Notes under the pieces: model-generated
Databases searched by the model: none
Told to the model about the DNA's origin: nothing
Seen by the model: only the letters and a program-made list of their open reading frames with translations
Position numbers and translations under genes: made by a program
Source: Candidatus Peregrinibacteria bacterium
GTDB lineage: Bacteria > Patescibacteriota > Gracilibacteria > UM-FILTER-43-11
Assembly (NCBI GenBank): GCA_016932495.1
Contig: JAFGCR010000025.1
Coordinates: 1-57,278 of the forward strand
DNA: 57,278 nucleotides
Direction of reading: 5' to 3'
Shown: positions 16,313-55,406 of the stretch, piece by piece
Position numbering within the stretch: the first letter of the stretch is position 1
How the letters are laid out: every line of letters starts with the position of its first letter

Positions 16313-17020
16313 ATGGACCCGCGACAGCAGAAAATCCTCAAGGCGATCATTGAACAGTTTATCCAGACGGCCCTGCCCGTAGGGTCTAAACTGATCTATG
16401 AAGAATATGACCTGAATGTGTCCCCCGCTACCATCCGCAATGAAATGGCGGTCCTGGAGCGGGAGGGTTTTATTAAACAGCCCCATACCTCCGCCGGCAG
16501 GATTCCCACCAGCCAGGCCTACCGTCTTTTTGTGGACCAGCTGAAATATAACCTAAAACTTTTAGACAAGGCTAAAGAAGACATAGAACTGATCCGTCAC
16601 CAGTATTATCTGGACCGCGCTAAGGAAAAATTATACGGGATGGTCTCTATTCTGGCCACTGCCACGCGAAACGTTAGTTTCGCCACCCTGCCGGATAACA
16701 AACGCCTATTTTATATGGGTATCAGCCACGTTTTAAGACAGCCGGAATTCCAGGCAGACCCCTCCAAAGCCACCCAGGTGGTCGAGGTGCTGGAAAACCG
16801 CTTCAGCGATCTTTTGGGCAGCCTGGATATCAGCGAAGAACCCTCTTTTTATATCGGTGAAGAGAATCTGATCCCGGAGATCCAGAGCTGTAGTCTTCTG
16901 GTTCAGCAATACCGCTATAAGGGTTTTAAGGGGGCAATGGGGATTTTGGGCGCCACCCGCATGAATTACGCTTACAATATGGCGGCGCTTAAATCAGCGA
17001 TTGATTTACTTAATGATTAA
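16313..17020 (+). CDS. hrcA: Heat-inducible transcription repressor HrcA
   Basis: RQQKILKAIIEQFIQTALPVGSKLIYEEYDLNVSPATIRNEMAVLEREGFIKQPHTSAGRIPTSQAYRLFVDQL; C-terminus GAMGILGATRMNYAYNMAALKSAIDLLND. Confidence 0.93.
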   Translation: MDPRQQKILKAIIEQFIQTALPVGSKLIYEEYDLNVSPATIRNEMAVLEREGFIKQPHTSAGRIPTSQAYRLFVDQLKYNLKLLDKAKEDIELIRHQYYLDRAKEKLYGMVSILATATRNVSFATLPDNKRLFYMGISHVLRQPEFQADPSKATQVVEVLENRFSDLLGSLDISEEPSFYIGEENLIPEIQSCSLLVQQYRYKGFKGAMGILGATRMNYAYNMAALKSAIDLLND

Positions 17021-17092
17021 GTTAAGAGTTAAGAATTAAAAATTAAAAGTCAAACTCTCAACTCTTAACTTTTAACTCTTAATTAAAAAAAT

Positions 17093-17593
17093 ATGTCAGT
17101 TATTTTAGGAATAGATCCGGGATTGGCGACTGTCGGTTTCGGCGCTATTAAATCTGAAAAAGGGCGGTTGGAGTATCTGGACTGCGGGGTGATCAGGACG
17201 AAGGCCGGTTTAGATCTTCCTGAACGGCTCCACATCATCAAACAGGATGTCATGACACTCCTTGAGACCTTTAAGCCGTCGGTGGTCGGGGTCGAGGAAT
17301 TGTATTTTGCCAAAAACGTCACTAACGCCATCAAAGTGGCCCATGCGCGCGGTGTCATTCTGGAATCCTTATATGAGAAGCGGATTCCTTTGGTCAACTT
17401 CACCCCGCTTCAGGTCAAGAACAACATCGCGGGAGACGGACGGGCACAGAAATGGCAGATCCAGGAAATGGTCAAACGATTCCTGCATTTAAAACGTCAT
17501 CCCAGGCCGGATGACGCGGCGGATGCGCTGGCGATAGCGATATGCACGGAGAGGGGTCTTAAGTCACAAATATCTGTAAGTGCGATTAATTAA
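17093..17593 (+). CDS. ruvC: Holliday junction resolvase RuvC
   Basis: ILGIDPGLATVGFGAI, VGVEELYFAKNVTNAIKVAHARGVI, HPRPDDAADALAIAIC. Confidence 0.96.
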   Translation: MSVILGIDPGLATVGFGAIKSEKGRLEYLDCGVIRTKAGLDLPERLHIIKQDVMTLLETFKPSVVGVEELYFAKNVTNAIKVAHARGVILESLYEKRIPLVNFTPLQVKNNIAGDGRAQKWQIQEMVKRFLHLKRHPRPDDAADALAIAICTERGLKSQISVSAIN

Positions 17594-20384: not shown

Positions 20385-20819
20385 TCAATTTTTATCAGTA
20401 CTGCCGAATCCGCCGCGGCTTTCTTTTGTGATCTCATCCACCTCTTCGAATTCTAAGCGGTCCACGCGCACAAACAGCCCCTGGGCGATTTTGGTGCCTT
20501 TTTTAATGGTGACCGGCTGTTTGGTAAAATTCATCATCTGGATCTTTACCTCGTCTTCCTTTCCGCAATAATCCTGGTCGATGATGCCGATGCCATGGGG
20601 CTTGGTGAGGCCGTGTTTACGGGGGGTGGAACTGCGCGAAGCGACGATTAAAGAATATCCGTTCGGCACTTCCACAATAGCGTTGGCCGGAATCAGCTCA
20701 ATGGCATCCGGTTCGATCACCTTATCTTCCCGCGCGAGCAGGTCAAAACCCACCGATCCACCGGTTTCGTAAATCGGTAGCGGGAGGGATTTGTCGATAC
20801 GTTTGATGCGGACCTTCAT
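20385..20819 (-). CDS. dut: dUTP diphosphatase
   Basis: GSVGFDLLAR, ASRSSTPRKHGLTKPHGIGIIDQDYCG, KIAQGLFVRV, RGGFGSTDKN. Confidence 0.95.
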   Translation of the reverse strand: MKVRIKRIDKSLPLPIYETGGSVGFDLLAREDKVIEPDAIELIPANAIVEVPNGYSLIVASRSSTPRKHGLTKPHGIGIIDQDYCGKEDEVKIQMMNFTKQPVTIKKGTKIAQGLFVRVDRLEFEEVDEITKESRGGFGSTDKN

Positions 20820-20908
20820 AAATTTTAAATTTTAAATTACCAATAACAAATTACAATTTTTTTGCTGTACAGCTAAATTAAAATTTGTAATTTAAAATTT
20901 GTCATTGA

Positions 20909-21616
20909 TTATTTCAAAAGTGATCCCATCACCTCATTTACATCCAGTTTTATGGAAGGCCCCATCGTGGTGCAGATGGTAATGGAATTGATGTACGTCC
21001 CCTTGATCCCGCTGGGCTTGTTTTCACGAAGCGTCTGGAGTAAAGTCCTGAGATTGTTTTCCAGTTCATCTTGCTTAAAAGAAACTTTTCCGAAAACACT
21101 GTGCACATTTCCTTCTTTGTCGTTACGGAGTTCGATCCGTCCGCGTGAAAGTTCCTCAATCGTTTTTTCTATATTTGTCGTAACGGTTCCGGATTTAGGG
21201 TTGGGCATCAGCCCTTTCTGGCCAAGGTTCTTGGCGACCTTCCCTAGATGCTTCATGACATCCGGCGTCGCCACAACGACATCGTAATCAAATTTGCCGC
21301 TTTCAAATTCAGCGATCAGATCTTCTAAGCCAGCAGCGGCCGCGCCGGCAGCCTTGGCGATGCTGACTTTGCCATCGGGAACCACAGCGGCGATCTTCAG
21401 TTTTTTACCGGTCCCATGCGGCAGGACAACCGTGGTGCGGACAGCCTGGTCTGCCTGCTTAGGATCGATACTCAGGTTAAAATGGATCTCTGCGGTGCTG
21501 TCGAACTTAGTCGCGCCGGTCTCTTTGATCAGCTTAGCCGCTTCGCTGAGCGAAGAAACGACTTTACCTTTTACGAGCCCGGCAGCGTTTTTATACTTTT
21601 TACCGTATTTTTTCAT
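20909..21616 (-). CDS. rplA: Large ribosomal subunit protein uL1
   Basis: KFDSTAEIHFNLSIDPKQADQAVRTTVVLPHGTGK; GLMPNPKSGTVT. Confidence 0.98.
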   Translation of the reverse strand: MKKYGKKYKNAAGLVKGKVVSSLSEAAKLIKETGATKFDSTAEIHFNLSIDPKQADQAVRTTVVLPHGTGKKLKIAAVVPDGKVSIAKAAGAAAAGLEDLIAEFESGKFDYDVVVATPDVMKHLGKVAKNLGQKGLMPNPKSGTVTTNIEKTIEELSRGRIELRNDKEGNVHSVFGKVSFKQDELENNLRTLLQTLRENKPSGIKGTYINSITICTTMGPSIKLDVNEVMGSLLK

Positions 21617-50430: not shown

Positions 50431-50437
50431 TAAAATA

Positions 50438-50467
50438 AATGGACGGCAGCCGAAAAAGCCTCCGGAA
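50438..50467. repeat. 30-bp perfect direct repeat, copy 1
   Basis: AATGGACGGCAGCCGAAAAAGCCTCCGGAA, also at 50570..50599. Confidence 0.9.
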
Positions 50468-50507: not shown

Positions 50508-50640
50508 CCCCGAAAAATGCGAGGAGGTCTGGAAGAAGGCGCGGGGTATTTTTCGGGGCGGGGCCCCAAAATGGACGGCAGCCGAAAAAGCCTCCGGAAC
50601 AACGTGGGGGAGGATTTACAGGCTAAAGTCCATTTTGGGG
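50508..50640 (-). repeat. tRNA-trailing two-hairpin element, copy 1 (after tRNA-Ser GGA)
   Basis: Reading (-): CCCCAAAATGGAC...GTCCATTTTGGGG (13-bp perfect arms) then CCCCGAAAAAT...ATTTTTCGGGG (11-bp perfect arms); starts right after tRNA CCA. Confidence 0.85.
50570..50599. repeat. 30-bp perfect direct repeat, copy 2
   Basis: Identical to 50438..50467. Confidence 0.9.
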
Positions 50641-50730
50641 TGGCGGAGAGACAGGGATTCGAACCCTGGATACTCTTGCGAGTATACTCGCACTCCAAGC
50701 GAGCGCTTTCGACCACTCAGCCATCTCTCC
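50641..50730 (-). tRNA. tRNA-Ser(GGA)
   Basis: Acceptor GGAGAGA/TCTCTCC, anticodon loop TTGGAGT, long variable arm, encoded CCA. Confidence 0.95.
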
Positions 50731-51008: not shown

Positions 51009-51169
51009 AAGTTGTCTTTAAAAATTAGCCCACATAAACTATCATTTAGCTATACCCTTGTCAAATCAATCTTACTTCTTAATTTTGAAAACTTGAAAAC
51101 TTGAAAAATATATTAAAAAGTTCAATTATAATTTTATAGTTTTCAAATTTTCAAGTTTTCAAGGTTCTT

Positions 51170-52275: not shown

Positions 52276-52452
52276 ATGCCAAGAGGAAAAAACACGAATG
52301 TCTATCTGATCTGCAAGGAATGCAAAATGCAGAACTATAAGACACGGATCAATAAAAAGACCACTGCTAAACTGGAGCACAAAAAATATTGCGCCAAATG
52401 CAATAAGTCCACCCTGCATGCCAGCGGAAGTGAGATTAAACATAGCAGCTAA
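52276..52452 (+). CDS. rpmG: Large ribosomal subunit protein bL33
   Basis: NVYLICKECKMQNYKTRINKKTTAKLEHKKYCAKCNKSTLHAS; start moved from ORF-track start, which overlaps the tRNA. Confidence 0.94.
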   Translation: MPRGKNTNVYLICKECKMQNYKTRINKKTTAKLEHKKYCAKCNKSTLHASGSEIKHSS

Positions 52453-52549
52453 TTCATTTTGCATTTCAGATTTCACATTTCTGAATCAGATGTGACATTC
52501 TTAAGTGGTTAAATCGAATCTGAAATCTGAAATGCAAAATCTGAAATAA

Positions 52550-54794: not shown

Positions 54795-54876
54795 CTTATT
54801 ACAATTGACATGCAACAATTAACATTTGACAGTTTATACAAAGTCAAATGTCACATGTCAGGTGTCAAATGTTCAC

Positions 54877-54953
54877 CGGGGAGTAGCTCAGTTGGCTAGA
54901 GTGCGTGCTTTGGGAGCACGAAGTCGCAGGTTCGAGTCCTGTCTCCCCGACCA
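54877..54953 (+). tRNA. tRNA-Pro(UGG)
   Basis: Acceptor CGGGGAG/CTCCCCG, anticodon loop TTTGGGA, encoded CCA. Confidence 0.96.
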
Positions 54954-55078
54954 CCCCAAAACGGGTCTCCAGCTTGCGAATCATCCTACGCGTTGCTTCG
55001 GAGGCTTTTTCAGCTTACGCCCGCTTTGGGGCCCCTTCCCCGGAAAATACCCCTGGCCAAGCCTCGCATTTTCCGGGG
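54954..55078 (+). repeat. tRNA-trailing two-hairpin element, copy 2 (after tRNA-Pro UGG)
   Basis: CCCCAAAACGGG...CCCGCTTTGGGGCCCC then CCCCGGAAAATACCCC...GCCTCGCATTTTCCGGGG; aligns along its length with 50508..50640 (-). Confidence 0.85.
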
Positions 55079-55185
55079 ATCCCGATTTTTTTGGCCGGAT
55101 TTCCATTCTTCGGACTGATTATTTATTTTTTTATTGCAATTCTATTTTAAAAATTTTAATATTCTGTGGCCTCGAAAAAAAACCT

Positions 55186-55245
55186 GGGGTCCCCGCAAAA
55201 TGCGAGCACAATCCCGCAAAGCGGGACGAGCAGTATTTTGTGGGG
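55186..55245 (-). repeat. Partial copy of the element (hairpin 2 only), upstream of tRNA-Tyr
   Basis: GGGGTCCCCGCAAAATGCGAGC...CAGTATTTTGTGGGG. Confidence 0.7.
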
Positions 55246-55320
55246 CAGGAGGAAGAATTTGCACAAACGGCAGTTTGCGAATAAAATGAGCAAACGGAAG
55301 TTGAAGCAAATTCTGACGGA

Positions 55321-55406
55321 GGGCAGATACCAGAGCGGTCAAATGGGCCTGGCTGTAAACCAGGTGGCGTGAGCCTTCGGGAGTTCGAATCTCTCTCTGC
55401 CCACCA
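55321..55406 (+). tRNA. tRNA-Tyr(GUA)
   Basis: Acceptor GGGCAGA/TCTGCCC, anticodon stem/loop CCTGGCTGTAAACCAGG, long variable arm, encoded CCA. Confidence 0.95.

Follow-up and report, generated by a model that had tools for sequence, protein, structure and literature searches.

Gene-less two-hairpin DNA elements at the ends of tRNA and tmRNA genes in Patescibacteria

Elements and their tRNA anchors in the window

The window analysed here, a stretch of 57,278 nt, is contig C39 of a 98%-complete genome of 1.18 Mb (G000), and a Patescibacteria MAG is its sister genome within the genus. It contains the elements A, B and C, each next to a tRNA gene, together with a short fragment of a tandem second unit (Table 1). 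Read from the CCA of tRNA-Ser(GGA), element A runs through CCCCAAAATGGAC...GTCCATTTTGGGG, the arms of a first hairpin (H1), then a linker, and then CCCCGAAAAAT...ATTTTTCGGGG, the arms of a second hairpin (H2). A sequence-only reading of this DNA had described a two-hairpin element with perfect arms of 13 and 11 bp directly behind the CCA, and both its position and its arms were verified; the homologous element which it had noted behind tRNA-Pro(TGG) was confirmed as well, and is 73% identical to element A. The antisense element C at tRNA-Tyr and the second-unit fragment had escaped it.

Table 1. Elements and anchoring tRNA genes in the 57,278-nt window
Feature	Position	Strand	Description
Two-hairpin element A	50508..50640	-	Starts at the base after CCA of tRNA-Ser(GGA); from sequence
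H1 of element A	50564..50640	-	Perfect 13-bp arms, 50628-50640 / 50564-50576
H2 of element A	50508..50558	-	Perfect 11-bp arms, 50548-50558 / 50508-50518
Tandem second-unit fragment	50437..50467	-	31 nt; identical to 3' half of H1
tRNA-Ser(GGA)	50641..50730	-	Anchor of element A; ARAGORN; Rfam 58.7 bits
Element B	54954..55079	+	0 nt after CCA of tRNA-Pro(TGG); R1 131.8 bits, copy in training set
tRNA-Pro(TGG)	54877..54953	+	Anchor of element B; ARAGORN; Rfam
Element C	55186..55318	-	Antisense; left end abuts 5' end of tRNA-Tyr; starts CGTCAGAATTTGC
tRNA-Tyr(GTA)	55321..55406	+	Anchor of element C via its 5' end; ARAGORN; Rfam

Two covariance models were built, R1 from nine copies, with tRNA sequence left out, and R2 from 88 copies. 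Element A scores 123.2 bits with R1 and 105 bits with R2, being itself in the training sets of both, and element C, which stands outside the training set of R1, is found by that model with 50.4 bits (E 7.8e-12) and is 88% identical to the copy at the same tRNA in genome G001. Folds of elements A and B are more stable than those of 200 shuffled sequences, with z of -5.5 and -3.5, respectively. The two-hairpin observation is real and far above chance. The window also holds AT-rich intergenic palindromes of short degenerate repeats (e.g. AAGTTAAGAGTTAAG) at 17008-17096, 20818-20918, 51085-51162, 52446-52547 and 54801-54872, one of which is located between tRNA-Thr and tRNA-Pro.

Copies of the family are about 110-165 bp long. 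In H1, an outer stem of 12-13 bp, with arms variable yet complementary, encloses a long, conserved interior (GCTTACGAAT ... CTTCTTCAGC) that is folded further; in H2, 11 bp of stem (CCCCACAAAATAC ... CTCGCATTTTGTGGGGACCCC) surround an unequal internal loop, and the core CCCC..AAAATAC / CTCRCATTTT..GGGG is followed by ACCCC. The left end takes several forms. Sense copies begin NCCA|CCCCAAA.. or NCCA|TCGCAAA.., in G295 NCCA|CGTCGGA.., and antisense copies begin N|CGTCRGAAT... Every one of the 35 antisense copies placed at a tRNA 5' end has the CGTC tag, which sits at the 5' foot of H1, and so do 5 of 64 sense copies overall, those of G295 having it; most sense copies carry TCGC or CCC. Copies combine H1 and H2 modules in shuffled fashion, and in tandem second units the left H1 arm is missing. 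No ORF was found in the element copies or in the downstream sequences, and an all-against-all comparison of downstream sequences, looking for a longer autonomous version, gave just tandem units and a structured 88-nt tail module (GTTGTTGCAACTGTGTGAG...GACACAGAAACTTGCACAG), which follows the element at several loci of G008 (L148, L149, L156, L159, L161, L163).

Placement across genomes

All 46 tRNAs of G000 were inspected for the placement of the element. It lies at the 3' end of ten of them, directly after the CCA (0 nt) in eight (Ser-GGA, Pro-TGG, His, Met, Cys, Ser-GCT, Leu-GAG and Phe) and after 2-3 extra bases in two (Arg-GCG and Leu-CAA), and is missing from the other 36. R1 recovered these ten copies and three on the opposite strand at the 5' ends of Tyr, Ile and Arg-GCG, and the few other matches in this genome are the reverse strand of true copies; all 13 copies of G000 are situated at tRNA ends. 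Using R1, the family was found in 13 of the 118 genomes searched, all of the same taxonomic family. With R2 it was found in 21 genomes out of 360 from the class; G295, which belongs to another taxonomic family, holds eight copies, and weak copies occur singly in families f7 and f8. A pattern scan of GTDB matched just the sister MAG, and the pattern was therefore too strict; the covariance models performed better.

Among 135 copies placed in the class genomes, 104 are directly at the end of a tRNA or tmRNA gene, 67 in sense orientation at 3' ends and 37 in antisense orientation at 5' ends. The remaining ones comprise 10 tandem units behind another copy, 5 copies at contig edges (the genomes are MAGs, whose contigs are frequently broken at element repeats) and 16 others. 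At least 10 of these 16 follow a duplicated tRNA end or half-tRNA (L113, L130, L131, L150, L152, L159, L176, L273, L277, L289), two come after a GTACCTCCA end (L134), one after GAGCTCCA (L290) and one is tandem (L266), and at L272 and L283 no tRNA end was seen at the element junction. Some tRNAs bear elements on both flanks, and placement is the same in genomes from other families of this class (G295, G113, G055, G077, G094, G024). The rule is that the element, always pointing outward, has its left end attached to the acceptor-stem end and may lie on either strand: a sense copy follows NCCA, and an antisense copy follows the complement of tRNA nucleotide 1 plus N-CGTC. Because both ends are used, in tmRNA genes as well as in tRNA genes, the "3'-end-targeting" of the sequence-only reading is too narrow; its targeting of tRNA ends stands, its restriction to the 3' end does not.

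Several loci show further features at the junction. At two sites of L134 (G014, contig C33), the elements follow a hairpin GTTTAGCT...AGCTAAACGATCTGTACCTCCA, which is not a recognisable tRNA and whose end resembles that of tRNA-Cys; it is possibly an unknown tRNA-like RNA or a tRNA relic. In L273 (G359) and L176 (G014), half-tRNA duplications cut near the anticodon stem border the element. In addition, a group I intron (Rfam 53.5 bits) splits the tRNA gene at L130 (G011, contig C58).

Mobility, pairing and rival explanations

Movement of the element is strongly supported by comparison of copies and sites. In G008, copies of 148 nt after Ser-GCT and Met-CAT are 100% identical, and the copy after Leu-TAG, of which a contig end leaves 124 nt, has the same sequence; the identity begins just after the CCA and stops at GGGGACCCC. 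Between genomes, copies at one and the same tRNA have a mean identity of 70%. Empty sites were also found, in comparisons that are few and made at genus-level distance. The 5' end of Arg-GCG is vacant in G001 and occupied in G000 exactly at nucleotide 1 of the tRNA, and no target-site duplication was found there; the 3' end of Gly-GCC is occupied by an element in G001 and followed by a simple terminator hairpin in G000; the interval between Leu-CAG and Leu-TAG holds a sense and an antisense copy in G001 and a remnant of 17 nt in G000; and Phe in G001 has a truncated copy. At tRNA-Ala(TGC) of G001 (L209), a truncated tandem tRNA-Ala, consisting of anticodon arm, T arm and acceptor, comes right after the intact gene; this truncated copy is missing in G000. 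Some copies, such as those at Met in G000 and G001, appear to be orthologues preserved through compensatory changes, and these could have a function for the host. Compared with what defines a MITE, the family has near-identical gene-less copies at unrelated sites and polymorphism of empty sites (the Arg-GCG 5' end and the Gly-GCC 3' end); terminal inverted repeats with direct target duplication were not found, and part of the copies have an inverted copy of the tRNA end. Direct target duplication was rejected as a general rule.

This inverted copy is seen at the far end of the element. In g1, the home genus of the family in G000, a stretch a little beyond H2 often matches the reverse complement of the end of the same tRNA, as in the Arg example of 11 nt, CAGGCGCACCA / TGGTGCGCCTG. 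Over 17 sense copies of g1, the longest matches sum to 99 against 68 under permutation, and none of 20,000 permutations was as high (P<5e-5). Outside this genus the effect is weak, with P=0.09 for the sum and 0.0003 for matches >=7. Since it includes the complement of CCA, the inverted copy is not simply a tRNA 5' end.

The pairing itself was examined for the level at which it is kept. Both-sided changes occur in 24 of the 27 hairpin pairs in an alignment of 112 rows, where the covariation score reaches 0.415; shuffling gives 0.152, and sliding the partners no more than 0.093. The sequence-only reading had named copies placed randomly relative to tRNAs and free of covariation as the outcome that would speak against it; the observed covariation, and the concentration of copies at gene ends described above, are the reverse of that outcome. 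RNA selected for its folding tolerates G.U and rejects A.C, whereas the strands of DNA treat both as mismatches. In the hairpins of 88 clean copies the ratio of G.U to A.C is 57:69 (34:40 if sense copies only are counted), against 73:4 in the acceptor and T stems of tRNAs from the same loci. The Fisher P for this difference, 2e-14, is nominal because the element copies are not independent, and the contrast is nevertheless large. G.U being no commoner than A.C, we infer that the hairpins are kept as Watson-Crick DNA, which argues against an RNA trailer; pairing is maintained at the level of DNA, not of RNA. This comparison of G.U with A.C offers a simple means to discriminate DNA-level from RNA-level hairpins in metagenomes.

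The sequence-only reading had left three possibilities, namely a structured tRNA trailer, a small RNA linked to tRNAs, and a mini-element. The last of them is supported by the fixed phase to CCA in many tRNAs and genomes, the identical copies at unrelated tRNAs, the empty sites and the covariation, and the former two are disfavoured. An RNA freed in tRNA processing, like RtT of E. coli tyrT, would fit the fixed position after CCA and the strong covariation too, and RtT-like sRNAs freed from tRNA operons are known (PMC4986893); moreover, a sub-threshold RtT match (33 bits, with a cut-off of 45 bits) lies between tRNA-Tyr and the element at L277. We regard this explanation as improbable in view of the G.U and A.C counts, of the antisense orientation of 37 among the 104 anchored copies, which are at 5' ends, and of the fast turnover of sequence between orthologous tRNAs. 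The element itself matches no Rfam family, and the RtT model RF00391 gave no match to it in the window and in 10 loci. That the hairpins are intrinsic terminators of tRNA genes sharing sequence by chance is hardly credible: the base of H2 is GC-rich and T runs sometimes follow it, and Gly-GCC has the element in G001 where a plain terminator stands in G000, but a run of at least five T follows only 20 of 64 sense copies and is as frequent (10 of 35) behind antisense copies, on the side where no tRNA transcript terminates, and 36 of 46 tRNAs in G000 do without the element. Ordinary terminators, as the sequence-only reading had argued, would not share a two-stem sequence of about 130 nt, and the identical copies at unrelated tRNAs reinforce the point.

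Larger tRNA-targeting elements moved by a tyrosine integrase might have left the copies as attL/attR relics. Direct repeats of the tRNA 3' end do exist at Cys (15 nt), Ser-GCT (18 nt) and Gln-CTG (16 nt), and also at L113, L152, L150 and L277, and tyrosine recombinases are encoded in nearly all these genomes. However, direct repeats are absent from most copies, integration at a tRNA attB site does not place elements antisense at the 5' end, recombinases are equally present in genomes without elements, and no cargo ORF was seen; we therefore give this origin very little credence. The reading of the Cys and Ser repeats as att sites of the two-hairpin element was dropped because they mainly accompany a second, different module. 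The latter consists of direct repeats of 15-20 nt of the tRNA or tmRNA 3' end, often with an inverted copy inside, and resembles the RtT repeats of E. coli; it occurs at L058 (G000, contig C20, 1-700), L007 and L006, with relatives at L113, L130, L150, L152 and L277, where the sub-threshold RtT match falls on this module and not on the element. Integrase att relics would account for this module, not for the two-hairpin unit. At L058, the tRNA-Gln(CTG) gene (C20, 298-370) does not encode CCA, unlike nearly all other tRNAs of G000, and CCCGAGC is the terminal sequence of this gene and of its downstream duplicate alike.

In our judgement the family is therefore quite probably REP/MITE-like, a non-autonomous and gene-less mobile DNA that inserts at the ends of tRNA and tmRNA genes. 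A specific form of this reading, in which the element is a standard REP mobilised by RAYT (a Y1 HUH transposase), draws on its palindromic and gene-less nature, on CGTC at the 5' foot of H1 in the antisense copies and the sense copies of G295, and on RAYT-like genes in many genomes that bear the element. It remains rather unlikely, for the flanks of 18 Y1/RAYT-like genes in 8 genomes contain no copies, three element-bearing genomes (G005, G015, G018) have no match to Y1_Tnp, and in their exclusivity for tRNA ends, long stems and two-hairpin build the copies are unlike the CGTC REPs that have been published (PMC3733652). Y1/RAYT was consequently rejected as the linked mobiliser.

Candidate mechanism and known systems

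We infer a single-strand mechanism, in which the element would move as single-stranded or extruded hairpin DNA, as in IS200/IS605 and REP systems (PMC8266576). A hairpin-recognising nuclease or transposase, in the style of IS200/IS605-REP, may act on it in trans, and this putative enzyme would attach the element, by its left end, to the 3' side of DNA folded in the shape of a tRNA. Such a fold would be available on both strands, sense and antisense folding much alike; the stems of tRNAs are palindromic and therefore fold on both strands, giving one rule for both orientations. As one gene end lies near the D arm and the other near the T arm, whose sequences differ, recognition of the fold is favoured over recognition of sequence. 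The inverted acceptor copy might then be a by-product of fold-back synthesis at joining. Taken as a whole, that the target is the acceptor stem folded as DNA on either strand, that joining often leaves an inverted copy, and that the enzyme lies outside known transposon families is put forward tentatively, as something possible rather than probable.

Other candidates for the enzyme were searched for. IS110 transposases are missing from most of the element-bearing genomes searched, and so are reverse transcriptases, which are present in three genomes without elements. Tyrosine recombinases, found in nearly all genomes searched and equally in those without elements, are near-universal and thus uninformative on the mobiliser. 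A viral origin was set aside, the H2 pattern being unmatched in IMG/VR. Genes for tRNA are classic landing sites of integrases, which read the 3'-end sequence of one or a few tRNAs. In the present family many tRNAs and the tmRNA are used, at both ends and on both strands, under one geometric rule, and recognition of a folded DNA shape is therefore indicated; with the tRNA-end element family, this kind of recognition can be put to the test. For Patescibacteria, whose genomes are strongly reduced, the family would also be a prolific mobile element, and a literature search, not exhaustive, found no paper joining this group with such repeats.

Among known systems, REP palindromes tagged with CGTC, including RPE-4/6 of Rickettsia and dRS3 of Neisseria, have no dedicated transposase known (Di Nocera et al. 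2013, PMC3733652). Like them, the element is a multi-copy DNA palindrome without genes. The tag of the REPs is an unpaired CGTC (or TGTC/CCTC) at the foot of the stem-loop, and in the element CGTC is found there in the antisense copies at tRNA 5' ends and the sense copies of G295. The published ones have stems of 8-9 bp with loops of 4-5 nt and are dispersed between genes (PMC3733652), whereas H1 and H2 do not have such dimensions, the two-hairpin units of about 130 bp are almost confined to tRNA and tmRNA ends, copies away from these ends are nearly all tandem, at contig edges or behind tRNA-end fragments, and most sense copies of family f1 lack CGTC. REPINs, the REP doublets mobilised by RAYT (PMC3116915, PMC8266576), are likewise miniature mobile hairpin pairs with a proposed single-stranded hairpin substrate, but they carry a GTAG tag, form inverted doublets and are dispersed intergenically, while the tRNA-end element has a fixed target and, from the 18 gene flanks mentioned above, no copies next to the transposase gene and no linkage to RAYT.

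RtT RNA and the tyrT repeats (RF00391) go back to Bosl and Kersten 1991, as cited in PMC4986893. They share with the element a location downstream of tRNA genes and a tie to tRNA 3' ends; RtT is a released RNA, in contrast to the DNA-like pairing, the antisense copies at 5' ends and the lack of Rfam matches of the element. The units of rtT carry the tRNA 3' end, and the RtT-like module of the genomes studied here is the second one, with its direct repeat of that end. Class IIC group II introns insert in a defined orientation at the 3' side of DNA stem-loops, and the oriented insertion of the element is similar, although it has no intron RNA and most of the carrier genomes searched have no reverse transcriptase. 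In integrons, attC sites serve as recombination substrates in the form of folded single-strand hairpins, and their tandem arrays grow from a fixed anchor; hairpins and tandem units are alike in both, but the element has no visible cassettes and its anchor is a tRNA end. Set beside these systems, the family would be REP/MITE-like in kind, and what is new about it is the target and the presence of inverted acceptor copies.
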